A stretch of 64,000 nt of DNA, from positions 40,976,924 through 41,040,923 of the forward strand of contig OZ024897.1 of assembly GCA_964017195.1 (NCBI GenBank), in the 5' to 3' direction. Each line of letters begins with the position of its first letter. The first letter of the stretch is position 1. Below, one piece after another: positions 3,601-62,893 of this stretch. Below the pieces are notes generated by a model, which was given only the letters and a program-made list of their open reading frames with translations, was not told the DNA's origin and did no database searches. Source of the stretch: Siderastrea radians. Taxonomy: Eukaryota > Cnidaria > Anthozoa > Scleractinia > Rhizangiidae. The position numbers were made by a program, and so were the translations under genes.

Positions 3601-6600
3601 AACGCAGATGAGTCTCAGCTTACTGAGCTTAGAGCCCGCGGACGGAATGGTAAAAGCATCTCTCAAACAACTGTGACAGCGATTCAAGGTATTTTACATG
3701 GCATCTGATTTATATCTGGACATTTGGAGCTGCTGGAACACAGAGAGAGCTACATCGAGTACAGGTAAATCAGTGTCAATTTTGCGTGGTATAGCCAAAA
3801 AAATTTCGCCTTTCTGGCTCTGAATTTGTTCAATGCTTGTTGTTCAGACTGCCGCATGATTTTTGTACCGACTCGCCACAAAAATTTGTATTAAATGCCT
3901 TATTTTGTCTTGTCTCGATATTTCGGAGTCAAAGCCTTCCGTAAAAACCTACTGTTTGTGAAATTTTAAGAACAAGTGATTGACTTGACGATAAAAGAAA
4001 TTGTAAACACAGAGCTAAATGCTTAAAGTGCCACTGGCACCAGAATTTTGGTATTCCATGTTTTTACATTTTCGAACATAGTTTGTGGTTCTTAGTCACC
4101 ATGCCAAATTTCAACTTATTACGACGACTAGAAGTTGCTTTTTTCGGACGGTTTTTGCCGAGATTTTGCGGCCGCCATTACTGGCTCTTGTTCCGGAAGC
4201 TGGCTTGCGAATGAGCGGAAGTGACGTCAGAGGCTCACCTCAAACCTAGTGCCTTCACATGGTTACTTCCCACGGGAGAGCAAATTGTCGCTCGAGGAAA
4301 GATTTCTTGCCAACTGTTTGTTGCACGACTTTGAAATCTTCCTTGCTACAGCAGTAATGACAGGTAGCACTTGTGTTGTACAATGCTACAACAATAAATC
4401 CAACCACCGAGCTGGTATTTTGCTTCATTGAAGCCCTGCTAGCGGACCGGCAATGGCAAAACATAGGTGCGCAATACGCGCAGAGCCAATGACGTTTTTT
4501 TTCACAATATGGTGAAATTTGTCCTGACAATCTATGGGACCTTACACCTCCAGTAAGTCCCACACTAACCCCTCAGCCCCCCCCCCCCCCCCCACCACCA
4601 CCATCGAAAAGATCTTGTGGTTATCCACTATAAAACCTGGTAATGATTCAGCAGCGTGACTACGCGGAGTAAAAAAAAAACCGAAGAAAGCTCTTTGTTT
4701 CACGGTTCTTCAAAGAACACAGACAAAAACAAGTAAACTTAAACTTAAACTCACCGTCGAAAAATATTGCATACATAATTTAGGCAAAGATCAGTGGAAA
4801 GTTAACAATTTTACTTCAGAAATAAATGCAAGTTGCAGTTGAACCTTTTAATTTCTTACTTCTACCGGCAAATATCCAATACTTTTCAGTGCTCATAAAC
4901 GGTCAACTTTCTAAAGGGTGCCGTTTTGACGCTCTGCGTGATTTGCGTGACACACGACTCGCTTTACTTTGTTTAATTTGAAAGGTTTCAGACGTTTCAG
5001 GCAACCACTTACGTTCTTAGTACATTGTATTGTCAAAACAGGAGTCTGCCATCAAACGGCGTTTCTTGTATCCACAATATTTTCGTTCGAAATCGGTTTG
5101 AACTAGCGTTTATAAACACGACTGAAATAGTTTTGCAACTATATTTATTTCCCCTGTTATTTGAAGTTGCTTGCTTTGTAATCAAGTCGGCTATAATAAT
5201 TTTCGTCTTTTTGCTTCACAAATCGACCAAAGTATGTTTACATTTGTAACTTTCCCACGGTACAAAGTTATTTTTAGCTCACGTGTTTAATTGGAGTCTC
5301 AACCTACAGCCGAATAAATTTCGTTTGCTTTACCTTCGAAGAGTATGAAAATGTTCAAATTCAGCTCGCTTTACAGTAGATCCAACAGGTCTCTGTTAGA
5401 ATGCTTTGTCACACATCTGTTGTTGTTAATCTTTCGGTACTGTTTCGGTCGGTTCGAGATGTTTCAAGTGTTGCGTTACATTCCTTATAAGGCTGAAATT
5501 ACAGTTGTCAACTATGCAAATTTCTCAACATACGCTTTACACTTTGAGCTATGAATAACCCCGAAATAACGTTTATTATTTTTTTCTCAGCGCGTGAGCG
5601 GGCAAGATGAACCAAATCCTGCAATCTGATTGGTTCCGGGAGCGGGCGGAATTTTCCGATCTTGACCGCGGTCAACGGAACGTCAATAACAAAAAATTTG
5701 TAATGGGTTTTTAAAACCTTTAAAATCTTTAAAACGTTCTCCGAAACTTAGAATTCTGAAATTTTTTGTACATTGTCGTTAAAAACTTTCTTTCCAAACT
5801 TCCTGGTTAAAATACCGAAGGTTGTACAATGTAAATCGCCTCTTCCCTTTCGACAAACATTTGAGTAAATCGAGCAGGAGTTAGCTACATGTATCGAAAT
5901 TTGGGAAAATAAAGGGGTTTCTTTTAGTTATATTGCTTCCTGTGATCTCTGAGTTTTAACAGAGTAAAAAAGCGTATTTTGCTGCTCTGGTGTCACAAAC
6001 GGCTTCGTTTCATGGTTCATTTTACGCGCGCTTGCAAAACGTTGCTTTCCGAAAACAACAAGATACGTTTAACTTTTGAAAAACAACAAGAAAAAAATAA
6101 AAATATTATTTGCCGGCCTTGGTCGGTCCGTATTGAGAAAAACTGTGCCCTCGGTCTTGAGCACGGCCCTCGGCCTGCGGCCTCGGGCCGTACTCAAGAC
6201 CTCTGGCACAGTTTTTCTCAATACGGACCTCCCGGCCGGCAAATAATATATATGTATCTTATTAAGATTTTACTACATCCATCCTCTAATTCCTTGATCA
6301 CCACTGTGACTTGGATTTTAATACTAGTTTCATTCAAGTTTTTCAGTTTTAAGAATAGCTAGCAACAAGCCGCGCAATTTCCGATTTAGTTTTAATTGGG
6401 TTCATGTTTTATAACACGCACACAAAAATGACACTGCAAATTTTAGATTCGCTGTTACCGAGTAGCCTGCGTTGCAGCCGGCCCACGCGTTGTCGAAACT
6501 CGAAACCGTCGATATTCTATACAGGCGGTGTAGAGTGTCTGCGACGCAGGCTATTACCGAGAGATAATCCCGAAAAATTTTATGCTGTTTTACTCTACTC

Positions 6601-9600
6601 TTTTCACTATCGTTAAAAACTTGGGCTTTAAATATTGTTTCTTTCACTGTTAATTAGGGATCGATGTAACGTTAATTTCCACGTTCTGTTCATACAACAT
6701 CTCAAATTGGCAAGGGCTATCTCTAAAATAGGGAACGGGGAATCAAGGAACGGGGAACGGGGAATGGGGAACGGGGAACGGATAACGAGGAACAGGGAAT
6801 GGGGAACGGGGAATCTCTAAAATAGGGAATATCTAACACAGGGAATCTCTAAAATAGGGAATCTCTAAAACGGGGAATCTCTAAAATAGGGAATCTCTAA
6901 AACGGGGAATCTCTAAAATAGGGAATCTCTAAAATAGGGAATCTCTAAAACGGGGAATCTCTAAAATAGGGAATATCTAAAACGGGGAATCTCTAAAATA
7001 GGGAATCTCTAAAATGGGGAATCTCTAAAACGGGGAATCTCTAAAATAGGGAATCTCTAAAACGGGGAATCTCTAAAATAGGGAATCTCTAAAATAGGGA
7101 ATCTCTAAAACGGGGAATCTCTAAAATAGGGAATATCTAAAATAGGGAATCTCTAAAACGGGGAATCTCTAAAATAGGGAATATCTAAAGCAAGGAATCT
7201 CTAAAATAGGGAATCTCTAAAACGGGGAATCTCTAAAATAGGGAATCTCTAAAACGGGGAATCTCTAAAATAGGGAATCTCTAAAATAGGGAATCTCTAA
7301 AACGGGGAATCTCTAAAATAGGGAATATCTAAAGCAGGGAATCTCTAAAATAGGGAATCTCTAAAACGGGGAATCTCTAAAATAGGGAATCTCTAAAACG
7401 GGGAATCTCTAGAATAGGGAATCTCTAAAATAGGGAATCTCTAAAACGGGGAATCTCTAAAACGGGGAATCTCTAAAATAGGGAATCTCTAAAACGGGGA
7501 ATCTCTAAAACAGGGAATATCTAAAGCAGGGAATCTCTAAAATAGGGAATCTCTAAAACGGGGAATCTCTAAAATAGGGATCTCTAAAACGGGGAATCTC
7601 TAAAATAGGGAATCTCTAAAATAGGGAATCTCTAAAACGGGGAATCTCTAAAATAGGGAATCTCTAAAACGGGGAATCTCTAAAATAGGGAATCTCTAAA
7701 ATAGGGAATCTCTAAAGCAGGGAATCTCTAAAGCAGGGAATCTCTAAAATAGGGAATCTCTAAAACGGGGAATCTCTAAAATAGGGAATCTCTAAAACGG
7801 GGAATCTCTAAAATAGGGAATCTCTAAAATAGGGAATCTCTAAAACGGGGAATCTCTAAAACGGGGAATCTCTAAAATAGGGAATCTCTAAAACGGGGAA
7901 TCTCTAAAATAGGGAATATCTAAAGCAGGGAATCTCTAAAATAGGGAATCTCTAAAACGGGGAATCTCTAAAATAGGGAATCTCTAAAACGGGGAATCTC
8001 TAAAATAGGGAATCTCTAAAATAGGGAATCTCTAAAACGGGGAATCTCTAAAATAGGGAATCTCTAAAATAGGGAATCTCTAAAACGGGGAATCTCTAAA
8101 ATAGGGAATCTCTAAAATAGGGAATCTCTAAAACGGGGAATCTCTAAAATAGGGAATCTCTAAAACGGGGAATCTCTAAAATAGGGGATCTCTAAAATAG
8201 GGAATCTCTAAAACGGGGAATCTCTAAAATAGGGAATATCTAAAACGGGGAATCTCTAAAATAGGGAATCTCTAAAATGGGGAATCTCTAAAACGGGGAA
8301 TCTCTAAAATAGGGAATCTCTAAAATAGGGAATCTCTAAAACGGGGAATCTCTAAAATAGGGAATCTCTAAAACGGGGAATCTCTAAAATAGGGGATCTC
8401 TAAAATAGGGAATCTCTAAAACGGGGAATCTCTAAAATAGGGAATATCTAAAACGGGGAATCTCTAAAATAGGGAATCTCTAAAATGGGGAATCTCTAAA
8501 ACGGGGAATCTCTAAAATAGGGAATCTCTAAATCCAGAAGCCCGAACTAAAATTTCATGTCTGTTTTTCTCTCCACCATAATTTGGAAAGGATAGATAAC
8601 CCAAGATGGCAGTTCACGTTTGTAATGGGAATTCTTTGGATAATTTTTTCATGGCCAATCAAAGAAAACGTAATGATAACTTTGTACAAGTGGCATCGGA
8701 ATGGCGCGCAGCACTGTAACAGAAAAGCGCTGCTTCGATTGCGAATTGCCGAGTCGACCAAGCCGTGTTCCACCGTGGAAAGGTAAGCAAACATCACAAC
8801 CCGTGATACCCTGCTAACAGGGACTTTTCGTTTTGTATTCACGATAAACAAAGCAACTAAGCGAAATACGAGAGACGCAAACATCATCATACATGCTAAG
8901 AAAACTTTCCAGAAAGAAACACTCTGCTAGCAGGGTATACCTATAAACTGTAAACTGTTAAGCACGTTTTCGAATTCTCGTATGAACGGTAACAATACCT
9001 ATGTTATATTATTTTACTGTAAGCAAAAGAAAAAATGTACAACAGCCTCATTTTACCAATAACTAATAAAGGAGCCATTTACGCTGGCTTTGCGCCTCGA
9101 GCCAACGACATGTGACTGTGATGTCGTGACCTTTTACGTCTCGATTGTGATGGCGTGACTTTTGACATCTTGAGCCAAAAACATGTTGCGTTTTGAGCGG
9201 TGACTGTTATTGTCTAGACTTGTTTCAGATGTACCTTATTTTTACTTATCTTCGCGCGTCTTAATTTTAGCGAATTGAAAAAAAAATTGAGAAATTAAAG
9301 GCCAGCACAAAAAATCCTCTCAAAATTTACACACGCAGAATGTAATACACTCGTGAGAAATTTACATAATCAAACATATGAATCAATAAATATAAGAACG
9401 ATTTTCGTTTGACATGGAAGTAACTACGTGCGAACAAACAACAGAGGAATCAAACAATGGCAATTTAATTTAATTGGTTTAGGGAACAGACACAAACGCA
9501 CACGGCTTTTGGTTGGTTTAGCGAACATCAAGCATTTTCCACCTAGTAAAGAGCTTTCATGTACCTCTGTATTCAGCAATACGGTTGCACAATGGAACAA

Positions 9601-12600
9601 TGCTTTACCCATATTAGGGTTCTCTTCAGCGGTAAAGGAACGACGTCTTGTTTTCACATTTTTAACTAGTGGCTGATGAAACAAATAACGAACGCTTACG
9701 GAAACACTTTTTCAAGGTCAAATGAAAATCGCTCTTTTAGCAAGTTCTTACCAACATACCCACTACCGTCTTGATCTGCAAACTAGTGAATGACGGACTG
9801 TTCATTACCTCTGCAGAGGTTTAGAAAAGTAACATTTTATGGACAATTGTTTCACGAAATGGAATACTCTTTCACCAGTTTGTCTTCTTGAAATCGCGAA
9901 ATCAAAGCCTCGTAAATATTGGCTTGCCAAAATGGCGAAATTAAGTACGGCTGTATGTCGCGGGTTTGATGGGTATCTTGTCGAGATCAAAAGGGGAAAG
10001 AAGAAATCGAAACAGAAAGTTACCGCTTGAAAGGTTATTGGAAAATGGGAATGCAGTCTACAGGGCGAGCTTTGCTGATTTGGCAAACATCGAATCCGGC
10101 TCCGATTAATCTTTTCCAGTGCCTTCGATGATGTTTATTTTTTCTCTGGAAGCCCAGTTCGAACAAGTTTGAGTGTCTTGTTATTGACCTTAAAACAGGG
10201 ATTTTTTTGTTTTGGCCCTTAAATGCCTTGCTTAACTTGTGTCAGTTAGAGGGCCCTAACAAGCAGTACCAAGTCGCACGGGATTGTTGTTGTTGTTGTT
10301 GATAACACTGTTAAAAACGTATCCTAATAATTACAACTGTTAACGAACACTGTTTGCTGCCAAACGTATCAGAAATGCAGTTTTTTTTTCACGAGAGTTT
10401 CGAAGAATACAGTTTATTCTATGTAAGATAAGAGTGCAAATTCGTAAAAGAGAAGAGTTTTGTTGAAATTACAATTAAAAAGGGTTTTCATTCAACCATA
10501 GGTAATAAAAGAATCTGGTTTATGAAGCTCAGTGAAGTCCTTTGTTTTATTACTTTTGTTAGGTTTTGAATTTTGCATGAGCAACTAACCAATGAAATTG
10601 TTACTGTTAAGATATTCAGCCACAGCATATGAACTTTAAACAAAGGAATGTGCACGGTCATGGTACTTTTAAACTTGCAAGGTTTTGTAGCCAGTTTTTA
10701 ATTTGGCAATTCACACGTTTCCTTTTCGGTAAGGACATGTTATTGTTTGGTATTGTCTAAAGTTTTATCCGTCACAATGACGCATAAATTTCAAAGCAAC
10801 GTAACTAGGGATAATTACTTACTCATTTCTTCGCCTCTTCGGAATATTTCACCCGATCCAGTCTGAAAGGTGTAGCAGAGAAAACCAGCAGTCGCGATTT
10901 CCAGTAACGTTTCCAGTGTGCTCGGAAAAATTGACAGAAAATGGAAAAATGTTTCTGCTTACATTTTCTGATCAGCTACACCCCTTCAACTTCAAGGATT
11001 CTAAACCATTTCTGAACTGAAATTTGATTACAGTTTTTTGACATCCGATTCCCTCTTTCTCGCGCAGACACTGTAATCCGCACCATATTTGGATCAATTG
11101 AAAGGCCTATTATTCAGGCTGAGAAAAAAATGCATACCGACGAAAGTAGGATCCTATATGTTAGAGACTCCCTATTATAGAGATTCCCTACTTTAGAGAT
11201 TCCCTGTTTTAGATATTCCCTGTTTTAGAGATTCCCCATTTTAGAGATTCCCTATTTTAGAGATTCCCTATTTTAGAGATTCCCCATTTTAGAGATTCCC
11301 TATTTTAGAGATTCCCTATTTTAGAGATTCCCTATTTAAGAGATTCCCTATTTTAGAGATTCCCCGTTTTAGAGATTCCCCGTTTTAGAGATTCCCTATT
11401 TTAGAGATTTCCTATTTTAGAGATTCCCCGTTTTAGAGATTCCCTATTTTAGAGATTCCCTGTTTTAGAGATTCCCTATTTTAGAGATTCCCCATTTTAG
11501 AGATTCCCTATTTTAGAGATTCCCTATTTTAGAGATTCCCTATTTTAGAGATTCCCCGTTTTAGAGATTCCCCGTTTTAGAGATTCCCTATTTTAGAGAT
11601 TCCCTATTTTAGAGATTCCCTATTTTAGAGATTCCCCGTTTTAGAGATTCCCTATTTTAGAGATTCCCTATTTTAGAGATTCCTCGTTTTAGAGATTCCC
11701 TATTTTAGAGATTCCCCGTTTTAGAGATTCCCTGTTTTAGAGATTCCCCGTTTTAGAGATTCCCTATTTTAGAGATTCCCTATTTTAGAGATTCCCTATT
11801 TTAGAGATTCCTCGTTTTAGAGATTCCCTATTTTAGAGATTCCCCGTTTTAGAGATTCCCTGTTTTAGAGATTCCCCGTTTTAGAGATTCCCTGTTTTAG
11901 AGATTCCCTATTTTAGAGATTCCCTATTTTAGAGATTCCCCGTTTTAGAGATTCCCTATTTTAGAGATTCCCCGTTTTAGAGATTCCCTATTTTAGAGAT
12001 TCCCTATTTTAGAGATTCCCTATTTTAGAGATTCCCTATTTTAGAGATTCCCCGTTTTAGAGATTCCCCGTTTTAGAGATTCCCTATTTTAGAGATTCCC
12101 TATTTTAGAGATTCCCTATTTTAGAGATTCCCCGTTTTAGAGATTCCCTGTTTTAGAGATTCCCCGTTTTAGAGATTCCCTATTTTAGAGATTCCCCGTT
12201 GTAGAGATTCCCCGTTTTAGAGATTCCCTATTTTAGAGATTCCCTATTTTAGAGATTCCCCGTTTTAGAGATTCCCTATTTTAGAGATTCCCCGTTTTAG
12301 AGATTCCCTATTTTAGAGATTCCCTATTTTAGAGATTCCCCGTTTTAGAGATTCCCTCTTTTAGAGATTCCCTATTTTAGAGATTCCCTATTTTAGAGAT
12401 TCCCCGTTTTAGAGATTCCCCGTTTTAGAGATTCCCTGTTTTAGAGATTCCCCGTTTTAGAGATTCCCTATTTTAGAGATTCCCTATTTTAGAGATTCCC
12501 TATTTTAGAGATTCCCCGTTTTAGAGATTCCCTATTTTAGAGATTCCCCGTTTTAGAGATTCCCTATTTTAGAGATTCCCTATTTTAGAGATTCCCTATT

Positions 12601-15600
12601 TTAGAGATTCCCTATTTTAGAGATTCCCCGTTTTAGAGATTCCCCGTTTTAGAGATTCCCTATTTTAGAGATTCCCTATTTTAGAGATTCCCTATTTTAG
12701 AGATTCCCTATTTTAGAGATTCCCCGTTTTAGAGATTCCCCGTTTTAGAGATTCCCTATTTTAGAGATTCCCTATTTTAGAGATTCCCCGTTTTAGAGAT
12801 TCCCTATTTTAGAGATTCCCCGTTTTAGAGATTCCCTGTTTTAGAGATTCCCCGTTTTAGAGATTCCCTATTTTAGAGATTCCCCGTTTTAGAGATTCCC
12901 TATTTTAGAGATTCCCCGTTTTAGAGATTCCCTATTTTAGAGATTCCCCGTTTTAGAGATTCCCTATTTTAGAGATTCCCCGTTTTAGAGATTCCCTATT
13001 TTAGAGATTCCCTATTTTAGAGATTCCCTATTTTAGAGATTCCCTATTTTAGAGATTCCCCGTTTTAGAGATTCCCCGTTTTAGAGATTCCCTATTTTAG
13101 AGATTCCCTATTTTAGAGATTCCCCGTTTTAGAGATTCCCTGTTTTAGAGATTCCCCGTTTTAGAGATTCCCTATTTTAGAGATTCCCCGTTTTAGAGAT
13201 TCCCTATTTTAGAGATTCCCCGTTTTAGAGATTCCCTATTTTAGAGATTCCCCGTTTTAGAGATTCCCTGTTTTAGAGATTCCCCGTTTTAGAGATTCCC
13301 TATTTTAGAGATTCCCCGTTTTAGAGATTCCCTATTTTAGAGATTCCCCGTTTTAGAGATTCCCTATTTTAGAGATTCCCCGTTTTAGAGATTCCCTATT
13401 TTAGAGATTCCCTATTTTAGAGATTCCCCGTTTTAGAGATTCCCTCTTTTAGAGATTCCCTATTTTAGAGATTCCCTGTTTTAGAGATTCCCCGTTTTAG
13501 AGATTCCCTATTTTAGAGATTCCCTATTTTAGAGATTCCCTATTTTAGAGATTCCCTGTTTTAGAGATTCCCCGTTTTAGAGATTCCCTATTTTAGAGAT
13601 TCCCTATTTTAGAGATTCCCCATTTTAGAGTTTCCCTATTTTAGAGATTCCCCATTTTAGAGATTCCCTATTTTGGAGATTCCCTATTTTAGAGATTCCC
13701 TATTTTAGAGATTCCCCATTTTAGAGATTCCCTATTTTAGAGATTCCCTATTTTAGAGATTCCCCGTTTTAGAGATTCCCTATTTTAGAGATTCCCTATT
13801 TTAGAGATTCCCCGTTTTAGAGATTCCCTATTTTAGAGATTCCCCGTTTTAGAGATTCCCCGTTTTAGAGATTCCCTATTTTAGAGATTCCCTGTTTTAG
13901 ATATTCCCTATTTTAGAGATTCCCTATTTTAGAGATTCCCCGTTTTAGAGATTCCCCGTTTTAAAGATTCCCTATTTTAGAGATTCCCTATTTTAGAGAT
14001 TCCCCGTTTTAGAGATTCCCTGTTTTAGAGATTCCCCGTTTTAGAGATTCCCTATTTTAGAGATTCCCCGTTTTAGAGATTCCCTATTTTAGAGATTCCC
14101 CGTTTTAGAGATTCCCTATTTTAGAGATTCCCCGTTTTAGAGATTCCCTGTTTTAGAGATTCCCCATTTTAGAGATTCCCTATTTTAGAGATTCCCCGTT
14201 TTAGAGATTCCCTATTTTAGAGATTCCCCGTTTTAGAGATTCCCTATTTTAGAGATTCCCCGTTTTAGAGATTCCCTATTTTAGAGATTCCCCGTTTTAG
14301 AGATTCCCTATTTTAGAGATTCCCTATTTTAGAGATTCCCTATTTTAGAGATTCCCCGTTTTAGAGATTCCCCGTTTTAGAGATTCCCTATTTTAGAGAT
14401 TCCCTATTTTAGAGATTCCCCGTTTTAGAGATTCCCTGTTTTAGAGATTCCCCGTTTTAGAGATTCCCTATTTTAGAGATTCCCCGTTTTAGAGATTCCC
14501 TATTTTAGAGATTCCCCGTTTTAGAGATTCCCTATTTTAGAGATTCCCGGTTTTAGAGATTCCCTGTTTTAGAGATTCCCCGTTTTAGAGATTCCCTATT
14601 TTAGAGATTCCCCGTTTTAGAGATTCCCTATTTTAGAGATTCCCCGTTTTAGAGATTCCCTATTTTAGAGATTCCCCGTTTTAGAGATTCCCTATTTTAG
14701 AGATTCCCTATTTTAGAGATTCCCCGTTTTAGAGATTCCCTCTTTTAGAGATTCCCTATTTTAGAGATTCCATGTTTTAGAGATTCCCCGTTTTAGAGAT
14801 TCCCTATTTTAGAGATTCCCTATTTTAGAGATTCCCTATTTTAGAGATTCCCTATTTTAGAGATTCCCTGTTTTAGAGATTCCCCATTTTAGAGATTCCC
14901 TATTTTAGAGATTCCCTATTTTAGAGATTCCCCATTTTAGAGATTCCCTATTTTAGAGATTCCCTATTTTAGAGATTCCCCGTTTTAGAGATTCCCTATT
15001 TTAGAGATTCCCTATTTTAGAGATTCCCCGTTTTAGAGATTCCCTATTTTAGAGATTCCCCGTTTTAGAGATTCCCCGTTTTAGAGATTCCCTATTTTAG
15101 AGATTCCCTGTTTTAGATATTCCCTATTTTAGAGATTTCCTATTTTAGAGATTCCCCGTTTTAGAGATTCCCCGTTTTAGAGATTCCCTATTTTAGAGAT
15201 TCCCTATTTTAGAGATTCCCCGTTTTAGAGATCCCTATTTTAGAGATTCCCCGTTTTAGAGATTCCCTATTTTAGAGATTCCCTGCTTTAGATATTCCCT
15301 GTTTTAGAGATTCCCCGTTTTAGAGATTCCCTATTTTAGAGATTCCCCGTTTTAGAGATTCCCTATTTTAGAGATTCCCCGTTTTAGAGATTCCCTATTT
15401 TAGAGATTCCCTATTTTAGAGATTCCCCGTTTTAGAGATTCCCTCTTTTAGAGATTCCCTATTTTAGAGATTCCATGTTTTAGAGATTCCCCGTTTTAGA
15501 GATTCCCTATTTTAGAGATTCCCTATTTTAGAGATTCCCTATTTTAGAGATTCCCTATTTTAGAGATTCCCTGTTTTAGAGATTCCCCATTTTAGAGATT

Positions 15601-18600
15601 CCCTATTTTAGAGATTCCCTATTTTAGAGATTCCCCATTTTAGAGATTCCCTATTTTAGAGATTCCCTATTTTAGAGATTCCCCGTTTTAGAGATTCCCT
15701 ATTTTAGAGATTCCCTATTTTAGAGATTCCCCGTTTTAGAGATTCCCTATTTTAGAGATTCCCCGTTTTAGAGATTCCCCGTTTTAGAGATTCCCTATTT
15801 TAGAGATTCCCTGTTTTAGATATTCCCTATTTTAGAGATTTCCTATTTTAGAGATTCCCCGTTTTAGAGATTCCCCGTTTTAGAGATTCCCTATTTTAGA
15901 GATTCCCTATTTTAGAGATTCCCCGTTTTAGAGATTCCCTGTTTTAGAGATTCCCCGTTTTAGAGATTCCCTATTTTAGAGATTCCCCGTTTTAGAGATT
16001 CCCTATTTTAGAGATTCCCCGTTTTAGAGATTCCCTATTTTAGAGATTCCCCGTTTTAGAGATTCCCTGTTTTAGAGATTCCCCGTTTTAGAGATTCCCT
16101 ATTTTAGAGATTCCCCGTTTTAGAGATTCCCTATTTTAGAGATTCCCCGTTTTAGAGATTCCCCGTTTTAGAGATTCCCTATTTTAGAGATTCCCTATTT
16201 TAGAGATTCCCCGTTTTAGAGATTCCCTGTTTTAGAGATTCCCCGTTTTAGAGATTCCCTATTTTAGAGATTCCCCGTTTTAGAGATTCCCCGTTTTAGA
16301 GATTCCCTATTTTAGAGATTCCCTATTTTAGAGATTCCCCGTTTTAGAGATTCCCTGTTTTAGAGATTCCCCGTTTTAGAGATTCCCTATTTTAGAGATT
16401 CCCCGTTTTAGAGATTCCCCGTTTTAGAGATTCCCTATTTTAGAGATTCCCTATTTTAGAGATTCCCCGTTTTAGAGATTCCCTGTTTTAGAGATTCCCC
16501 GTTTTAGAGATTCCCTATTTTAGAGATTCCCCGTTTTAGAGATTCCCTATTTTAGAGATTCCCCGTTTTAGAGATTCCCTATTTTAGAGATTCCCCGTTT
16601 TAGAGATTCCCTGTTTTAGAGATTCCCCGTTTTAGAGATTCCCTTTTTTAGAGATTCCCCGTTTTAGAGATTCCCTATTTTAGAGATTCCCCGTTTTAGA
16701 GATTCCCTATTTTAGAGATTCCCCGTTTTAGAGATTCCCTATTTTAGAGATTCCCTATTTTAGAGATTCCCCGTTTTAGAGATTCCCTCTTTTAGAGATT
16801 CCCTATTTAAGAGATTCCCTGTTTTAGAGATTCCCCGTTTTAGAGCTTCCCTATTTTAGAGATTCCCTATTTTAGAGATTCCCTATTTTAGAGATTCCCT
16901 ATTTTAGAGATTCCCTGTTTTAGAGATTCCCCATTTTAGAGATTCCCTATTTTAGAGATTCCCTATTTTAGAGATTCCTCATTTTAGAGTTTCCCTATTT
17001 TAGAGATTCCCCATTTTAGAGATTCCCTATTTTGGAGATTCCCTATTTTAGAGATTCCCTATTTTAGAGATTCCCCGTTTTAGAGATTCCCTATTTTAGA
17101 GATTCCCTATTTTAGAGATTCCCCGTTTTAGAGATTCCCTATTTTAGAGATTCCCCGTTTTAGAGATTCCCCGTTTTAGAGATTCCCCGTTTTAGAGATT
17201 CCCTATTTTAGAGATTCCCTGTTTTAGATATTCCCTATTTTAGAGATTCCCCGTTCCCCATTCCCCGCTCCCCGTTTCCCGTTTCCCGTTCCCCGTTCCC
17301 CGTTCTCCGTTCCCCGTTCCCCGTTCCCCGTTCCCCGTTCCCCGTTCCCCGTTCCCCGTTCCCCGTTCCCCGTTCCCCGTTCCCCGTTCCCCGTTCCCCG
17401 TTCCCCGTTTTCCGTTTCTCGATTCCCCGTTCTCTATTTTAGAGATAGCCAATTGGCAAGTCCGTCTTGTATTTGCTGCTGTGGAAAAATGTACTTCAGC
17501 TAAGTAAACACAGGACTACAACGCGAATAAAATCCCGCCAGACCTCACGTACACAAAACAGGCATTCGAAGTAGATCCACACTTGCGAATGCAAAACACT
17601 TCAAAGCCCGGGGGTCTTACTCCCATGACATTAGCTGTATGGGTTTGTGCCGCTGATAAGGTAAGACTTTCAGTGTCCCGGTGCACACCCCCACCCATCG
17701 TCTCACAGAATATTCCCCCAGCCTCACAAATCGTAAGACAGACATCGCACGTACGTACAACGTCTATCTATCCAGACGTCTATCGTTGATTTTTAGGCTC
17801 TGACAGTAGCCATATGACGTCACTAACGTGACGTCATTGGCTAAAAAGGACAATGTTCGTACTCACACAGTGCGAATTTCAACCCGAGAGGCATTTTGAT
17901 CACTTCACGGACGAGTTTTTCCAGAGGGCTGTTCATGTCGCAAGATCCCCGAGGTCGATCATTCCATTGCCTATTCCAACTATATGGAAAAAAGAACTGG
18001 AAAAAAACATTATCTGCGCGAACAAGACGAAAGGTAACTTACCTAATCTTATAATGCACCTATCAATTTAAGGCCGGCGGGGGGGGAGGCAGGGCATGGG
18101 GTGGGGATTTGATTGTTATTGTTGGCCCTGGGGTGGGGCTTTTGACTGATCTTGCCTTCCCGGGGGAGGGGATATTTGAATTTGTCTTCGGCCCAACGTG
18201 GATCTGTTTGAACGTCGACTTGAACGAAAGAAACTGGGACCGAAATTACTTTTCCCACGTCACGCATGCGCTCTACGTCCTTGAAATCATAATGGCTGTC
18301 CACGAGATCGAGAATCAGATAATCAAAGAATTTGACCGTTTTATCTCCATATTTTCGATTAATTTAGAGTTTTGTTTTTGTTGATTTGAACGTTTTTAGA
18401 CATTGCAGTATCGAAGTAAACAGGGATAAAGAGAAACCAAGTCGATTTTTTGGCCAATGTAAACGATCAGTGTACCGGCCAGTCGCTGCAACGACTGCTC
18501 TTTTCAAATGTTATGCTTTCTGCAGCCTTTGCAGAAAATACGAACTGCTTATTAAAGACTGTTGATTTTGTAATCCGATATACACAGTGTATTAAACGCA

Positions 18601-21600: not shown

Positions 21601-24600
21601 GCAGCTCGCCGCTGATTGGTGAATTTGAAACGGCCGGCGTGATCGGAATTTCTCTGGTCGCTGAGTCGAGCACCGATCATATTGAGAAAGCCGTATGCAC
21701 GAATTCAGCATGGATTTTCTCGGAAACTGTTGGAGGGATGAAGTTCAAATTTGGCGAAGAGATAGAGCAACAACTCAGCGATCGATAGCCGTCGTCAGAT
21801 AGGTGAGATTTTCAGTAGTTTGGCGTTAATTCCGGTTTGAAGTGGAGTCGGTCGCTGCTGGCGGCGGCCGACTTGCAAGCCTTGTTCTCTCTTCTCTCTC
21901 TCTACCACCGGTCGCTAAATAATCTCGCAAAATAACGCCTCAAAAGGCTCGCGGCGGCAAAAAAACATGACACAAGACTCATTTGACATTTCATCTTAAC
22001 TTTTATTGAATAATTTAGAGTAAACTCTATATTTTGTAGTAAATCGAAGCCGACCTACTGTTTCTCCATATATCTTCTTATACGCGCCATTGATTTCAAC
22101 ATGACCTTTGTCAACAATTATTAACTACGAACACATAGGGTGGTCTGCCTGTGGTTTCAGTCGGTTGGCGCGGCGTATTTTAACCTGATTTTACCATCGC
22201 GCCGTTTGTCTGTCTTGCGTACGGTTGCCGAAAATTCTGCTGCTCCTTGGAGATGCCGAAAATAAATTAGTCCTTCCTAATCCTTAACACTCCATTTCAT
22301 TTCGAGCTCCGTAAAGCATAAAGCCGATGGCTCTCCTTGTTGTAAATTTGTTATGTTGTGACTCGTGCCGGCTTCCGTTGACTATGGCGATGGTTAGCGA
22401 CAGTGTTTTGAAATTCAGAGACTTGTAAACGTGTTTTTCTGAGTCGAAAATAACATAGACCGCTTCGATGTCGAACGTTCGTATGTAATGAAGAAATACT
22501 TGTCTATAAAAGGATTTCTTATCACCACAAATACTTCTGAAAAAGCTTACATCCTCTCCGGTACTTTCCACCATTCTGACACTAGTGACAATCTTACACT
22601 TTGCTACCCCTCCCCTGTGACACATTCTTGTTAGCACCCAGATTTTGGGTGCCACGTGACCAGCCGAAACCAGGGTACTTTCTCGAGGGAGGAAGAGAGA
22701 GGACCCTGGGTACGAGGTTGGCGACTGAGGTGAGCCTCTGACGTCACAAGCTATTAAATTGCGCAATCACCCAGGAACACGTTTTCAGTAATGGCGGACA
22801 CATTTTACGCTACTTTGGAGCTAAAAAATATTAGGATGGAAGGTTTGTTGTTCAGTTTTCTGGGGAAATATGAACAAAACGCGATATTCTGCGACAGAAT
22901 TTGGCGGAAATAAACCTATGAATTTTCGTCCACACTTTAAATAAACTTACAAATTTCTATTTCTACAGTTTCCTTTCGTCCTAGGAAGACAAGCACTCTG
23001 AAGCAACGTAGATTTGTTTCTCAGTGACGTTCAGTTGTAATTCATCCTTTATTTAACTTCGATACAAAGTGATTTTTCTCGGGCGGAGAAAAATATAAGT
23101 TAAGCTTACTTTAAGCTCACTCTGTCGTTGAACCCTTGCTACGTCCACTGCGCTATGTATCCCTTCTAGGTTCGTAAATTGCTCAGTAAGTAATATTCAT
23201 TACTAAGGCAGAATGAAGTTTCACTTCAGCTTTCTCTTTCTCATCGACGGAAGAAGTTTTTCTTCGTGCTTTTCCAGTTCTCTATTTTGTCGACGATTGA
23301 TAACGCACCGCGAGAGCATTTGATTGAAAACAAAGCGCGCTTTTCGCTGTTTTTTGTCTTCATTTCGATCCATTTCTGCCACTTCGGTAAAGGTGGACAT
23401 TATTTCAGAAAACATACGCTAAGAAACCTTGGCAAACGTCTTCTTTCCCGGTAGTTTGAATTTATGTTACTATTTTCGGGCACCGTGCTTGGACATTTCA
23501 ATCTCTGTACATCCTCAGAGGAAATATATTTTCGGGATGTCTTTTGCGTTTTCCTGCCTGATTCGCCTTCAACTGTTTTTTCGTAGTTCGACGCCTTTTT
23601 TGCCCGCAAAACGTTTCATCCGTCTAAAGGGGAAATTCTCGAAGTCCGACATGTCCGAAGCATCTTCGACACAGGATTTGTCTAAAATATTCTCACTGCC
23701 ATCATCAACAACAACACTTGCGCTTTATTTGCATGACCATAAAACATAACAGTATTGCAAAAGCATAAGATAATATATAATAACAATAATTACAATAAAA
23801 AGTCATTAAACAAAACTAATCAAATAATCACTGATCAAGAATTTGACAATAATTTGTCTCTCATTTCAAAACAGGACGATATAAACTGCACTAATTGCAT
23901 ATTAATATTATAGTCAGTGGAGTTCATTAATTGCACAATCAAGGTTGAAATTGATAGCTGCTTGGGATTCGAAATTACATGATCTATTTTACTGAAAAAG
24001 TTGTCTCTAAGTGATGAATATCTTGGACAATGAAATAGAAAATGGGTTTCATCTTCAACATTATGCCCACAAATAGTGCATAGTCTGTCACTTCTGGGGA
24101 CATTGTTATATCTTCCTGTTTCAATCAGGAGTTTGTGATTACGTATTCTTAGTTTCACAAGCGTTTTTCGATTGGGATTTTCTCTAGTCAAATGTAAATA
24201 AGGCGAAGGTGTATAACTGTCTTTAATAGTATTATAAAATTCTAGTTTTTGAGAATTACAAAGAGAATGTTTCCAATAAGCGATATATTTCTTTTTCATT
24301 TGATCTACAAGGTACGTTATCTTAGTGTCATCTAAAGTGTCATGATTAAAGTTAAAGGGAATGTCATAATAATTGAGCATATTTATAACACTGGAATAGA
24401 AACTATTTTTACCATTACAGTGCAAATCTATTGACATTATCAGTGATTGCACGACGAAGGAGTTTTGATCTTTATTTTGAAGATAACTTATGTACTTAAG
24501 AATTCGTTTATTTATATCAAAGGTTAAAGGGAAGCGACCCATTTCAGCCCGGCATGCAATATTAGATGCCTTGTTATTAACTTGTAAGTAGCGTTTGCAA

Positions 24601-27600
24601 AATTGTAAGTGACTTTTTTCAATTGGTGAAGTGTCCCAAGACTTGAAATCTGATTTAGCAAAGACACCCCAGGCTTCGCTATTATAAGTCAAAATGGGTG
24701 AAATCATCGTGTCGAAAATTTTGCAAGCAAGAGAGGGTTTTAAACGGCTTAAGTCAACGTGCCGTCTTAAAGCAAAGAGAGCATGAAGAGCCTTTTCTCT
24801 CAAGTGATCCAACGACAGTGTGAAATTTCCAGATGAAGAAATTCGCGTTCCTAGATAAGTATAATTCTGAACAGTGTCAATCTTTTCTTTGTCAATATAA
24901 AAGTTACATTCATATTTTTTCGCGCGTTTTTGAAAAACCATTATTTTAGTTTTCTTAGGATTAATCTGTAACATCCACGATGTACAGTACTGGGCTAATG
25001 CATTGAGACAATTTTGCAGCCCTGTTTTTGATCGTGATAGTATAATCAAGTCATCTGCACACAAAAGAGAGTTTAATTTGGTTCCATTGGGTAAAACAAA
25101 TGGATCAGATAGAATATTGTCGAAAGAGAAAGGTAAGTCATTAATGTATAGGTTAAACAGAAGTGGACTCAGAATGCAGCCTTGGCGTACACCTCTTGCA
25201 TATTGAAAAGGTCGCGTTTGGTTATTGCCAATCCTTATAGAACCGGTAGAATTGTAGTAGAGGCTTTTGATTAGGTTATAAAAATTTCCTCCAACATTAT
25301 TTTGCAGCAGTTTATAAAGGAGCCCATCGTGCCATACCGAGTCGAAAGCTTTCCTGAAATCGACAAAACAGGCGTATACCTTTTCATGGTGACAATTAAC
25401 GTACTTATCTATCAATGTTCGCAAAGTAAGAACATGGTCTGCAGTTCGGTTATTCGGTAAAAAACCGATTTGAGATTTGTGAAGGATGTTCAACGAGTTG
25501 ACATGTTCTAGAAGTCTTTGATTTAAAATCGAACAAAATAATTTTCCTAGACAGCTAGAAACGCAAATTCCTCGGTAATTTGAGGGGTCATTTCTTCCAC
25601 CAGACTTGAATATTGGTGTAATGAGCCCACCACACCACATTTGAGGCATTGATCCCAAATCAAGAATATTGTTGAAAAGTTTCTGATAAACGAGTATCAT
25701 TTCATTTAAACTAGTTTTAATCATTTCGTTTCGTATTTTGTCTGAATAGGGTGATTTGTTATTCTTTAATTTTTTTACTGCTGTACGTATTTCGGCTTCT
25801 GTGATGAAGAAGTCCAATGGAAGCGATTGCATTTTGTTGTCTTCTTGTTTTCGTAACTCATAGATAAGGTTTTGTTGATCGGAGTTAAGAGGGTCATTTG
25901 AATGAAGAGACTGGAAATGTTTCATCCAATTTTCTTCTGAAATCAGTGGAGTATGTTTTAATTTCACTGAGTCATCAATTGATTTCAGACAATTCCAAAA
26001 GTGTTTCTTGTCTGAATCGAGGGCGGTTTCCTCTAGCTCAGAAATCTTGTTATTGTAGTATTCATTTCTTTTATTATTTAGAAGGTTCTTATACTGTTTT
26101 AAGACAGTATGATATTCTTCACGGAGAATGACGTTTAAGGGATCTCTGTGTTTTTGATTTGCTAATTTTCTTAATTCATGTCTTTTCAAGCGACATTCTT
26201 TATCAAACCATTTTTGTTTGAAGATAATTGGGCGCGTTTATGTTTTTTTATAGTTTTTATCTTTAAGCAGCGTTTTGCAGTTGCGATGAAAATGTTTTCT
26301 ACTTTTTGAAGGGAGATGTTAACATTTGCGATTGATTCGTTGTCGTTTAGAAACTCTGGGATTAACGTTTGGGTACTTGGAGACCGTAGTGCCTCTTTGA
26401 ATTTTTGTGTGGAGTCATGCTCCCAGCAGAACTGTTTCGGTAAACTCGTCAAAGTATCATTTGCAGGTATTGCATCCCGATTAGAAATATTCGTGTTAAT
26501 ATTCAGCCAAGTCACTATTGGGCTATGATCTGATAAACAGGATGGCTCTTTAACAATAAAATTTGCTACATGTTGAAATAAATCTTGATCACATATTGAA
26601 TAATCGACGACACTTGTTCCGTTTCTACCATGAAACGTGGCTCTTCCTAATGAATCACCACAATCACCACACATCAGAATCACTTGTATAATCCTCATAT
26701 TCAGAGTCACTATCTGGAAAGCTCTCCTCAAGGTCTTGCCTCAAATTTGGAAGTGACACTGATAACAGAAACTGAATTTCTTCATCTCCAACGAAAGTAA
26801 TTTCCGACGCCATTTTGTTTGTTTTCCTTTGCGCGGAGTCCTCGCAACATGTACGGGCGCGTGTAACGTGCGATGGCGCAATTTTTTTCTAAAAATAGCA
26901 CATTTGTCTTTTTCGTTGGGGCCAACGCCATTACGGAAAATGGCATTTAGTTACGCTCTCCGTCCCCGATTATGGCTCCTGATAAGAACCAATACCTGGA
27001 CGATCCTGAAAATAATAGCAAGCTTAGTAGGTGGGGCCATATAAGATAAGGATTTGTAAACTGCGTGTTTTAGATGTTAACATAAAACTGAATACGTCAT
27101 ACAGAAAGACATTCTAATTCTACCTTGTATTTTGTGTAATGTTAAGTTTAGTTAACATGTCTTTACTATTCTAACCAACTTTCATTGACATGGTCATCAG
27201 ATTTGGTCACCGTTTCACCTACTCGTTTCTGATGGTCCTGGTGGCGATTGTACTACAAATTGCTGGAGGTACTAAGTTTTAAATTAATTTATGACTACGG
27301 TTAACTCTTTTTAAGGCGAACACCCTTGGGACCAGCTCTCTGCCTTAGAGAAGTGTCCGCCTTAGAGAGGTGTCTTCCTTTCCAGAGAGAGGTGCTTGCC
27401 TTGTCCACTATAGTAAGGTTTCTGTCTTAGAAAGGTAGCTGAAGATGTCCGCCTTTCAGAGAGAGGTGTCCGCCGTGGGAAAGATTGGCTACAGCCAAAC
27501 GCGTAAAATTCGCCTGGGTCCAGCTAACATGACAGTGTCTACCATTGAGAGTTGTCTGTCTTACAATGATGTCCACATTGAACACGTCCTCTTTATCTTA

Positions 27601-34630: not shown

Positions 34631-35002
34631 CTAGTTACTTCGAAGCAGCACATTTACGGGATTTTTTTCCTTAGGCTGATATTCCAAGTCTGAAGAAAAC
34701 GTCCCCGCTGTTGATATACGCTGCACTGGCAGCGGCTTCCGGTGTAGTGTCTCTTTGCCTGCCAAGTCAGGTGCCACAAAGCGGGGAACAAACGGAGGCA
34801 TGGGAACAAACGGAGGCATGGGAACAAACGGAGACATTGGAACAAAAGGAGACATGGGAACAAACGGAAGCATGGGAACAAACGGAGACATGGGAACAAA
34901 CGGAGGCATGGGAGAAGGATGATGCTCTCTCTTGGTGTAAAAAGCCTCGGATTCAGGCCCCTTGCGATCGCGAAGAGTTGGAAATAAGGAGAGAAGATAC
35001 AA
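34631..35002 (-). CDS. ORF with in-frame 18-bp minisatellite (PPFVPM repeats)
   Basis: The 123-codon minus frame contains eight or so copies of a six-residue PFVPMP/S unit from about 34785 to 34915. It then leads into PRFVAPDLAGKETLHRKPLP and a stop. The repeat unit is exactly 18 bp, so the frame is kept. It may be a repeat-rich exon or simply a minisatellite in non-coding DNA. No signal or domain was recognised. Confidence 0.3.
   Translation of the reverse strand: MYLLSLFPTLRDRKGPESEAFYTKREHHPSPMPPFVPMSPFVPMLPFVPMSPFVPMSPFVPMPPFVPMPPFVPRFVAPDLAGKETLHRKPLPVQRISTAGTFSSDLEYQPKEKNPVNVLLRSN
34785..34915. repeat. 18-bp minisatellite, about 7-8 copies
   Basis: The unit is GGAACAAACGGAGGCATG with A/G changes between copies. 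Confidence 0.9.
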
Positions 35003-40789: not shown

Positions 40790-42876
40790 TTACTTGATGA
40801 GCTTGATTATTACCTCGCCATCTCCACGTCTTACTCCTTCAGTATTCTCCTGATTCTTGCCACCATTATACGACCCTCCACCTCCAGCCACCGTCCCCTT
40901 GTGTTCTTTAACTTCGTTTGCTTCAATTCCTCCACCGGAATATCCACCTCCTCCCCCAGGATATGATGTGGCTGCCCCCCCGCCACCGAAACCCCCGTTG
41001 GAAACTCCAGGCCTGCTTAGGCCCCCGAGTCCCCCATTCAAAAAGCTTTGCCCCCCTTCACAAGTCCCAGACGACTCCCCATTTCCGCGGTAACCCCCTC
41101 CCCCGGAGCCTTCGATTTTCTGCGACTGCGGACATAAGCTTCCTCCCAAACCATTGTACCCACCATGCCTTGTTCCATTCTTTGTTGTTTGTCCGTGGTC
41201 TCCATTTAATGAACTATTGACAGACTCTAACCCGGCTCCCCCTCCCCCACCCCCAGCGATGACAAGTGGTGTGTCGTCTACCTTGGTAACGAACGTCCCA
41301 CCACCCCCACCCCCAGGAACTGCGTTGGAGGATATTCCCACTTGTCCCTCCTGTCCTTCCTGTCCAACAAGGATTTTCAACTTTTCTCCAGCGTTGAGGC
41401 GGAAGAGTCCTTTAATCCTTGCGCCTTTTCCTCCGAGTGTCCAACCCGGCTTTTGGTTGTTATTGGTCCCATTTCCCCCTGACGCGCCATAGGCTGTTAC
41501 ACTGTACACTCCTGTTACTGGCACGCTCCATATTTGTATGCCGCCATCTAGATTTACTTTGCCCTCTAATGGTGTACCTTTGTACCCGGAAGTATCCCTT
41601 GGGCCTTCACGTCCTTTGGCGCCAAGGGAAGTGAAAGTCACGTGTACACAAAAGTCTGAAACAAACAGCGAGATCATTCATCTGTTAATCTAACCCAATT
41701 ATCATCCTCCCACCGTCGTTTTCAGGGGAGTCTATTTACCCGAGTCGACCGCGTGGGTGGCTGACCAAATCAGAGCGGTGATTAAATAACTTAATCAGAA
41801 CTTTACGCAAGAGCATGCAACTTGCGCCAAGGGCGAGAAGTGCGAGTTATATGTTTTCTTAATGTCTGTAAAAGGTGAGTTTTTTTGGACAATCATACAG
41901 CGTAGACAAACAACACTAAAGTAAACGCGGAACACTTATTGAAAAGGCTTTAATTTTTAGATATTTTTGTTCAGATGTCATTTGGTCTCTAAACAATTCG
42001 TAACGAGAAGTCTGTTCCTCCTAACGACCACTACGTTGATTTCCCGGGTGGTACTCCCTCAGAATTCCTATACGAATATGTGCCGCCCAATGGTGTTGTG
42101 GTTTTAGGACTCATTATCTAGAAAGGGGTATCCATATTCGAGACATTTTGTAGAACCGGGGGGGGGGGGGCATAGTGCAAACGCACGAAAGCTTCAAAGT
42201 ATCAGCAGCGATTTTAAATTATTTTGATAGAGTAATTCTTAAACAAAACGCGTTTGTTACAAATCCTGATTTGCGTAGACGCAGTCGTATTCCTGATGTA
42301 TAAGTCGAAAAAACAAAGCAATAACTTTTTTTAAACGGGGTATTGAAGTTTAGTAAGTATCTACGGAACAGGGTATTAAAAAATTGCCTATTTCCAAAAA
42401 CGGGGTATCACTTTGAAACCAAAACCCTTCTAACATGTCTAAAACGGAGTCTAAATTTGGAGGCCTGGGCAGCACACACTCCCGGATGAGTTTAACCTTT
42501 GAGTTATTCCTGCATCCTTACCAGGCTTATCGCTCTGTTTAACAGACTTTTTTCCAGAACGAACAATTTGCCCGTACATCCACCCTGCTCGCTCTGTGAG
42601 ACCTTGATCAAAGTGTCTAGCGGTGCTACTGGACAGTTCACAAAGTCCCTTGTTTGATGAGAGTTTGTAATTAAAAGACATGCATCCTTCTTTCCTTAAA
42701 CAAAGGTGCGCACATGAGAATTGGCTGGTAATCCGCTGACGTTCCATAACGTGGCCCTTCAAGCGGAAATTTGTTCTGGTTGTCATTAGTGACTCCACAA
42801 ACGTACATGAAGCACTTGTAACGAAGACGATAATGGTGAAAACACAAGCTGAATGGACGTACAAGTGGCAGATCAT
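40790..42876 (-). CDS. Secreted PAN/apple plus glycine-rich (ALK-like) protein
   Basis: Two exons: 42522-42876 and 40790-41655. The donor is CCTG|GTAAGG, the acceptor TTTCAG|ACTTTT, and the split codon is an Asp. They give 406 residues. Residues 1-25 are a signal peptide (MICHLYVHSACVFTIIVFVT). Residues about 26-105 form a PAN/apple domain with conserved Cys pairs (CAHLCLRKEGCMSFNYK). After a short collagen-like phrase (LGAKGREGP) comes a C-terminal glycine-rich region from about residue 150: GVYSVTAYGASGGNG, repeated GGGGGG, ending RRGDGEVIIKLIK. That region matches the style of the extracellular Gly-rich segment of ALK/LTK receptors, but no kinase or membrane helix follows. It is likely an extracellular adhesion or matrix protein; the ligand is unknown. 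An in-frame Met lies upstream of the signal peptide, but the chosen start gives the better leader. Confidence 0.8.
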
Positions 42877-60040: not shown

Positions 60041-60575
60041 GGGGTGAGTGTTCACCAGGAACAGTTTAAAATGGGTGAGAGTTCACCACGGAAAAGTGCA
60101 ATGGGGTGAGAGTTCACCATAGTAAAGATAAAGAGCAATGGGTGAGAGTTCACCATAAAAATAATAAAAAAAAAAATTGAGCAATGGGGGTGAGAGTTCA
60201 CCATAGTAAAGATAAAGAGCAATGGGTGAGAGTTCACCATGAAAAGAGCAATGGGGTGAGAGTTCACCATAGTAAAAATAGAGAGCAATGGGTGAGAGTT
60301 CACCATAAAAAAAAAAAAATTTGAGCAATGGGGGTGAGAGTTCACCATAGTAAAGATAAAGAGCAATGGGTGAGAGTTCACCGTGGGAAAAAAAAAAAGA
60401 AAAGAGCAATGGGGGTGAGGGTTCACCATAGTAAAGATAAAGAGCAATGGGTGAGAGGTCACCATGAGAAAACAGTAATGGAGTGAGAGTTCACCATAAA
60501 ATGAGATGCGAGTTCACTATGTACAGGCAATAGGTAATAGTTCCCCAGGGTAACAAGAAAAGCAATGGGGTGAGA
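60041..60575 (+). repeat. Array of about 16 GGTGAGAGTTCACC palindromes in gag intron
   Basis: Each unit has the 14-bp palindrome GGTGAGAGTTCACC (stem GGTGA/TCACC), usually preceded by GCAATGG and often followed by ATAGTAAAGATAAAGA. Spacing varies from about 30 to 45 bp. The palindrome begins with GGTGAG, a good splice donor. The last units (60502-60570) are decayed. Confidence 0.85.
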
Positions 60576-60683: not shown

Positions 60684-61223
60684 ACTCTAAAGAAAAACTT
60701 TGCTGTCCTCCAAAAGTCTCTTGATGAACTGACAAGGCTCTCAGTGGCTGCCGTAATAAGGAAGATGTTGGACTATGCAGCACGGCCGCTCTCTGAGTTC
60801 AATAAGTTTGAGGCGATAGACATCCTAGAAACCCTCCAGAATACATCCCGCGATAATCAGGATGAGAAACGTGAATTTTACCGTTTGGTGTACCAGACAG
60901 CTAGAGGAAAAGTGGACCTTCCAAAAGAGCACTTCCGGGCTCTGATTCTACGCCTTCTAGGGGATAAAGATCACACTAAAGTGTATGAAGCTGTCGCAAA
61001 GGTAGAAAAAGCGATGGGCACAGGGGGCCCATGGTCTGGTTCGTCTCACCGTGGGCGCAGTAGTGATGTTCCGTACAGGGGGCGTGGCATGAGAAGTAGT
61101 GCCCCAGTCCAATGCTATTTTTGTGGAAAGTTCGGCCACATTATGGCAAGGTGTTACGCGAGAAGAGATATGCAGCAAAAGCCCCCGGCGACCCGTGGTC
61201 GCGCTAGGGACAATAAGCAATAG
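60684..61223 (+). CDS. DIRS-like gag exon 2 with CCHC zinc knuckle
   Basis: It follows a TTATTCTAG acceptor. The 179 residues have a helical N-terminal part (LKKNFAVLQKSLDEL, AAVIRKMLDYAARPL), an Arg/Gly-rich linker and a CYFCGKFGHIMARC knuckle (C-x2-C-x4-H-x4-C), ending in a basic tail and TAG. The knuckle binds nucleic acid in gag-type proteins, so it is probably the element's RNA-packaging protein. Confidence 0.7.
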   Translation, partial: TLKKNFAVLQKSLDELTRLSVAAVIRKMLDYAARPLSEFNKFEAIDILETLQNTSRDNQDEKREFYRLVYQTARGKVDLPKEHFRALILRLLGDKDHTKVYEAVAKVEKAMGTGGPWSGSSHRGRSSDVPYRGRGMRSSAPVQCYFCGKFGHIMARCYARRDMQQKPPATRGRARDNKQ

Positions 61224-62890: not shown

Positions 62891-62893
62891 TAG

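Follow-up and report, generated by a model that had tools for sequence, protein, structure and literature searches.

A 64,000-nucleotide stretch of the genome of the coral Siderastrea radians (GenBank assembly GCA_964017195.1, contig OZ024897.1, positions 40,976,924 to 41,040,923 of the forward strand; hereafter the window) contains a foldback transposon of 10,736 bp, which occupies positions 6715-17450 as one complete unit. Its termini are exact 17-bp inverted repeats of GGCTATCTCTAAAATAG, present once on each strand of the window (6715-6731 on the plus strand, 17434-17450 on the minus strand). The window holds only two copies of AATTGGCAAG, both on the same strand (none on the opposite strand), at 6705-6714 and 17451-17460, where they adjoin the element ends directly as an exact 10-bp target duplication. 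The exact termini and the flanking duplication of the original prediction are thus confirmed. Inward from either end, 7-mers (GGGAACG) come first, followed by the 16-mer array (GGGAATCTCTAAAATA and variants) and, in the middle, the 2.6-kb core, arranged as follows.

6705-6714, plus strand: left target duplication AATTGGCAAG, single-copy in an unoccupied paralogue in L046
6715-6731, plus strand: left terminal inverted repeat GGCTATCTCTAAAATAG, exact; 401 genome matches at no more than one mismatch
6731-6808, plus strand: left 7-mer block (GGGAACG), diverged, by Tandem Repeats Finder (TRF); similar blocks lie at the ends of 36 aligned copies
6809-8535, plus strand: left arm, 107 to 108 copies of the 16-mer GGGAATCTCTAAAATA (TRF and unit counts)
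7449-7653, plus strand: 205-bp tract with a 15-bp unit, identical to the right-arm tract (comparison of arms)
8536-11156, no strand assigned: core, 2,621 bp, no long open reading frame (ORF); by core comparison, the kinase-bearing core type with a deletion
11157-17251, minus strand: right arm, 381 copies of the 16-mer in reversed orientation, with large internal duplications (TRF and unit counts)
15159-15363, minus strand: right-arm copy of the 205-bp tract (comparison of arms)
17252-17433, minus strand: right 7-mer block (TRF)
17434-17450, minus strand: right terminal inverted repeat (exact match)
17451-17460, plus strand: right target duplication (exact match)

Counted in the assembly, the left array has 107 16-mer units (108 with the degenerate last unit) and the right array 381 in the opposite orientation, close to the opposed arms of about 107 and about 380 units first proposed. 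TRF placed the 16-mer arrays at about 6809-8535 and 11157-17251 (92-93% matches; right/left ratio 3.5) and the 7-mer blocks at 6731-6813 (76% matches) and 17247-17432 (91% matches). By inspection, the terminal repeat is GGC plus one array unit; the GGGAACG 7-mer, judged by eye only, is GGGAATCTCTAAAACG, the second commonest 16-mer variant (163 of 488 units), without TCTCTAAAA. Because of these relations, the entire arm looks like a single motif family. The core was compared with transposase profiles, as had been suggested, and here the expectation of the original prediction failed: no transposase was detectable in it, since the Pfam matches of nine ORFs were all far below cut-off, and the evidence described below comes from a longer copy elsewhere. 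One core ORF had nine matches in the protein collection (74-98% identical), all unnamed and without function. Neither Rfam (gathering threshold) nor the tRNA search gave a match across the window, and a 25-bp array pattern had 0 matches in IMG/VR and GTDB contigs.

By joining the window flanks in silico around a single AATTGGCAAG, we obtained a test sequence that matched L046:7390-8174 at 98.99% over 789 bp, through the junction, and a second unoccupied copy, L046:5689-6215, at 90.7%. Both L046 copies contain CTCAAATTGGCAAGTCCG, which includes one AATTGGCAAG; they are unoccupied versions of the repeat that received the element. This host sequence (window 6315-6714 and 17461-17860) is a dispersed repeat with at least two further unoccupied occurrences in L046. 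For the joined flanks of the other copies, cross-junction matches were found in 3 of 35 cases within the sequence examined, two of which (L010 and L025b) fall in the copy's own neighbourhood. The insertion and its 10-bp duplication can be read directly from these comparisons, and a single insertion via a staggered cut that duplicated 10 bp would account for them.

In the genome (805 Mb in 439 contigs, with the window on C11), the 17-mer end has 401 matches at no more than one mismatch (181 forward and 220 reverse), and the reversed 17-mer has none under the same conditions. Exact matches number 230 (32 + 108 + 90), of which 222 entered an analysis of neighbours less than 25 kb apart that ignored ends with a mismatch. 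The neighbouring exact ends comprised 68 '+-' pairs, 4 '-+', 3 '--' and 1 '++'. The 68 pairs have a median length of 4.9 kb, and four of them are longer than the window copy. We examined 36 copies, namely 33 from pairs in the first 100 listed ends, two (L044 and L048) from seven lone ends, and the window copy. Exact 10-bp duplications flank 28 of the 36; L029 has one mismatch and L048 fits 9 bp. Among 1,260 mismatched pairings used as a control, none was exact and the closest had 3 mismatches. These duplications differ from copy to copy with no strong consensus. The copies form a family with common ends, and the paired ends and duplications on which the original prediction had staked itself are found in other members, although six of the 36 copies lack a duplication and 86 of the 222 listed exact ends have no exact partner within 25 kb. 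Together with the target duplication and the unoccupied target copies, the different duplications of the other copies uphold a single mobile foldback unit.

Two arrangements were seen beside the regular copies. Back-to-back members, with 27-58 bp from the right end of one to the left end of the next, occur in four places:

C3:1823035/1823082
C8:34282442/34282486
C12:34422999/34423074
C12:35067869/35067944

The 11.5-kb family copy L019/L020 (C2:8205272-8216935), which has no target duplication, carries in its core a 413-aa ORF that by eye resembles a Harbinger-type transposase and is probably a nested insertion.

Comparison of the cores revealed several non-autonomous forms. In 24 of the 36 copies the core is largely palindromic (with an inverted repeat of 600 bp or longer that matches at 97% or better), so that core and arms make the copy nearly a palindrome; 11 cores are not palindromic, and that of L014 has an inverted repeat of only 107 bp. 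L034 and L015 have a common non-palindromic core of 5.4 kb with a 299-aa protein-kinase ORF (PF00069, E 6.6e-32), L031 has a damaged kinase ORF, and the palindromic core of L032 matches, in either orientation, the initial 1.6 kb of that of L034. The window core corresponds to the L034/L015 type without the kinase segment, as do L016 (98.9%) and L033 (98.7%) over 2.55 kb, and this comparison shows the window copy to be an internal-deletion derivative of the kinase-bearing form. L010 and L029 possess family ends and arrays around a common core of 2.0-2.1 kb with no match to the window core or other cores. L034:6485-7213 also contains a 243-aa ORF that by eye resembles part of a Penelope-like retroelement, for which Pfam gave nothing. 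Because identity among seven palindromic cores is 99.42-99.97% (median 99.84% over 21 pairs), the amplification of the family is taken to be recent. Homogenisation of the unique inner arms was considered and mostly rejected: in 17 palindromic copies, private alleles occur 71 times in one arm only and 9 times in both. On the same count, the palindrome probably formed before the family spread.

The arrays behave differently from the cores. The same seven near-identical cores carry arrays of 27-133 units on the left and 33-75 on the right, with up to five-fold differences, from which it follows that array length changes far faster than sequence. Across the 36 copies, the shortest arm has 13 units and the longest 381, and no other copy approaches the window copy in array length (489 units in total; next 186; median 96). 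Its 3.5-fold arm asymmetry, which had been singled out, holds as a measurement and is not the family extreme, since L014 reaches 4.9 and L025a 4.1 (median 1.6 over 36 copies). Within the right arm, an exact repeat of 38 units recurs 44 units away (50 shuffles gave at most 23), with partial further copies, and this points to segmental duplication inside the arm.

A second kind of change may link the two arms. Each window arm has a single 15-bp unit, close to two rare variants and inside an exact 205-bp tract (7449-7653 and 15159-15363). The longest unit string common to both arms, 12 units, is not significant by length alone (chance maximum 18), but the weighted score for tract sharing is 30.3, compared with a maximum of 25.8 in 150 Markov shuffles. 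None of the 35 other copies has the 15-bp unit, and none has more than 74 bp of the tract. Since the weighted score exceeds the shuffles and the tract is confined to the window copy among the 36, the simplest reading suggested by these data is that the tract was copied from arm to arm within this copy; pairing of the arms as a hairpin would permit such copying. Alternatively, both arms may have inherited the tract from a common ancestor, with later loss in the other copies.

According to the above-described analysis, the arms would be tandem amplifications of the end motif itself, which may grow and shrink fast by unequal exchange or slippage and may be altered by occasional copying between the mirror-image arms. 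The 16-mer arrays most likely act as repeated transposase-binding sites, by analogy with Galileo. They could also have no role in transposition and have arisen neutrally, through unequal exchange and slippage during replication, a reading that we regard as possible though less favored. It fits the wide range of arm size, and copies with small arrays, such as L015 (25 and 42 units) and L034 (24 and 35), have exact duplications too. It fits less well with the retention of at least 13 units per side in all 36 copies (which were chosen by their exact ends), with the repetition of the end motif in the 16-mer monomer, or with the Galileo precedent (PMC3688188).

Which transposase moves the family is suggested by a longer copy on C11, where exact family ends lie 17,355 bp apart (9511438 and 9528776) and the right end reads family end, 7-mers, 16-mers. 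Between these ends lie two partial ORFs on the minus strand, 190 and 215 aa long, that are collinear with two parts (residues 641-829 and 878-982) of the 984-aa transposase of a Mutator-like element (MULE) from the same genome (E 7e-14 and 1e-15). It is therefore suggested, from this protein similarity, that the 17.4-kb copy holds the C-terminal part of a MULE transposase. Pfam found no PHD domain in the two C-terminal pieces, and stretches L059 and L060 of the same copy contained nothing recognisable. Twelve copies of the 984-aa MULE were counted, all of them enclosed by paired GGCATGTACTAAAACCCGAAAC ends; 10 are full length, and 8 of those 10 contain no stops. Two additional lone GGCATGTACTAAAACCCGAAAC ends exist in the genome. 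In the one copy that was read, the ends are followed by short inverted subterminal tandem repeats. By comparing the foldback ends with the ends of this MULE, we found GGC-N5-CTAAAA in common (13 of 22, shuffle p 0.0014; 9 of 14, p 0.004). Furthermore, MULE target duplications measure 8-11 bp (PMC6446971), a range that includes the 10 bp of 28 of the 36 copies and therefore indicates Mutator-like elements.

L049 (C1:16083000-16091900) represents this young autonomous MULE family with GGCATGTACTAAAACCCGAAAC ends. None of 41 places with a MULE catalytic domain lies less than 27 kb from the 222 listed exact foldback ends. At a different MULE locus, L050:1675-5631, an 805-aa MULE ORF (PF10551, PF21056) lies downstream of a 464-aa ORF; by eye, its C-terminus resembles a PHD finger and the upstream ORF a protease, and terminal repeats were looked for and not found.

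Taken together, we consider it likely that the window element is a non-autonomous MULE-type foldback transposon, a deletion derivative of the kinase form, which a MULE-type transposase recognising the common ends would move in trans. Several observations weigh against this explanation. The two transposase pieces have a stop codon between them, and the one of 190 aa is single-copy, with a next match of 52% identity. PF10551 gave nothing at the 17.4-kb copy at E up to 10, with 150 of 176 candidates scored and only C-terminal pieces read. The 984-aa MULE made a duplication of 9 bp, not 10 bp, in the one copy read. Six of the 36 copies (L012, L014, L033, L038, L025a and L019_20) lack a duplication.

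These points leave some room for a transposase of another type (P/Galileo, hAT, KDZ or other), with the MULE stretch of the 17.4-kb copy as a nested bystander. The stretch is single-copy with no catalytic part seen, and foldback arms are known in more than one superfamily, Galileo being of P type (PMC3688188); nevertheless, the 10-bp duplications of 28 of the 36 copies fit the MULE range and the foldback ends resemble those of the genome's own MULE, so we hold this alternative to be unlikely. That two satellite arrays or an assembly join mimic an element by chance has a negligible probability: arrays this long are hard to assemble and their unit numbers are assembly-based, but the unoccupied target copies, the exact duplication and tens of copies with an identical order of parts refute it as to the unit.

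The kinase deserves separate consideration. At 96% identity or more, we found 8 full-length copies, 6 of them without stops. Of 15 kinase places with no less than 93% identity across 167 residues or more, 14 lie less than 6 kb from a listed exact end; only 6 lie inside a listed end pair, and two have as their nearest listed end one that points away from them. The longest kinase (395 aa, L055) is in the 17.4-kb C11 copy, where the kinase match at C11:9524041-9524907 is on the minus strand like the transposase stretch at 9514181-9514750. L055 had been considered as a donor host gene and was dropped, its locus lying between exact ends. Other kinase relatives within the genome are at most 51% identical. 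The protein collection contains eight unnamed proteins of 376-408 aa (56-63% identity) and a 371-aa protein of Ptychodera flava (48%), and solved structures gave general kinase matches only (CDK9, JAK2, E about 1e-12). Purifying selection is not supported by pN/pS values of 0.56-2.8 (15 pairs from 6 copies, few substitutions), and comparisons with the longest copy (1.1-2.1, again with few substitutions) show no sign of selection. Because no stand-alone close relative was seen outside the family's surroundings, the kinase may be a long-standing passenger rather than a recent capture.

A broader association of kinase and MULE was apparent among distant relatives. After removal of family copies, of second pieces and of rows with E weaker than 5e-7, we compared 37 of 126 kinase rows with 212 MULE-like places. 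Twelve of the 37 have a MULE-like match less than 8 kb away, in every case downstream of the kinase and on its strand, and in 10 at 3.8-5.4 kb; random placement gave a mean of 0.14 and a maximum of 3 (2,000 trials). Four of the 12, with kinase and downstream MULE-like match on the same strand, are:

C4:43395128
C7:23244647
C3:20959448
C10:13365320

We tentatively propose, at somewhat less than even confidence, that the family descends from a two-gene MULE lineage with the kinase upstream of the transposase on the same strand. Against this proposal, 10 of the 12 places have a weak MULE match (PF10551 E 0.09-0.47), and many of these probably go back to a single unit; the match is below 1e-3 in only two (C4:43400425 and C7:23243933). 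The 12 places were all absent from the results of a SWIM search, which also missed known copies of the 984-aa MULE and is hence uninformative. No report of a kinase as a regular MULE partner was seen in the literature searched.

Elsewhere in the window, 60041-60498 is a compound tandem repeat whose units measure about 30, 36, 81 and 144 bp, and seven copies of an 18-bp tandem repeat, with several frames open, lie at 34784-34913. Two regions resemble retroelements by eye: ORFs of 800 and 184 aa at 23838-26740 on the minus strand, of non-LTR retrotransposon type, and a run of ORFs at 60684-63975 on the plus strand, with reverse transcriptase, zinc knuckle and RNase H. A 294-aa protein is encoded at 40796-41677, and its best named relatives are from Acropora (66%), which by itself would point to a cnidarian and probably to a stony coral.

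The coral family is complete and recently amplified, and a single genome offers its unoccupied sites and its ends, together with several non-autonomous forms and a candidate transposase source. Its near-identical cores, combined with arrays that differ several-fold, make it suitable for studying how tandem repeats expand within transposons and may give rise to satellites; it is equally suited to asking whether repeated end motifs act as binding sites. The pairing of kinase and transposase, if true, would be a new accessory function for the MULE superfamily, and the long mirror-image arms are likely sources of inversions and assembly breaks.

By structure, the family shows what defines a foldback element, that is, long inverted termini, tandem subrepeats, a middle part, unequal arms and a mobile unit with target duplication. 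Long inverted arms made of subrepeats are also found in Drosophila FB elements. Target duplications in the Galileo/P superfamily are short (7-8 bp), unlike the 10 bp of 28 of the 36 coral copies. Galileo is similar in its long inverted subrepeat arms, whose repeats hold extra transposase-binding sites, and differs in its P-type transposase (PMC3688188). No cnidarian or coral foldback element, cnidarian pack-MULE or 16-mer monomer of this kind was found in the open-access literature searched, so the statement of the original prediction that it knew of no described cnidarian member with this monomer stands for that literature, with Repbase and Dfam outside the search.

Pack-MULEs have MULE-type ends around gene sequence (PMC6431247, PMC9842752), here a kinase in sister copies, and a possible 15-kb pack-MULE has been reported in Nematostella (same sources). 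The family kinase differs in that no stand-alone close relative was seen outside the family's surroundings, so it is perhaps not a recent capture. Rehavkus is MULE-related with a minisatellite in the terminal region, and the 9.5-kb Rehavkus-1_TC has tandem repeats in its inverted termini; in these accounts, however, Rehavkus has 9-bp duplications and a PHD finger and comes from arthropods and annelids only (PMC6446971, PMC10218199), whereas the coral family has 10 bp in 28 of 36 copies, and L048 alone fits 9 bp. Tetris of Drosophila virilis (PMC4079207) is described as a foldback element without ORFs and with 8-10 bp duplications, assigned by its authors to Mutator, and its arm tandem repeat derives partly from the terminal sequence; it differs in a repeat unit of about 220 bp, only three complete copies and no transposase found. 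Tm1 of root-knot nematodes (Mutator/Foldback; PMC3169594) has composite terminal inverted repeats with short tandem repeats (13-15 bp) in variable number, unequal arms within a copy, and non-autonomous members beside members with a MULE (Phantom-like) transposase. Its target duplications are 9 bp (8-10), compared with 10 bp in the coral family, which by these descriptions also differs in its 16-mer plus 7-mer repeats, far longer arms, palindromic cores and kinase gene. We may conclude that the coral transposon most likely represents a new family of a known kind, likened to Tm1 and Tetris by descriptions of structure rather than by sequence.

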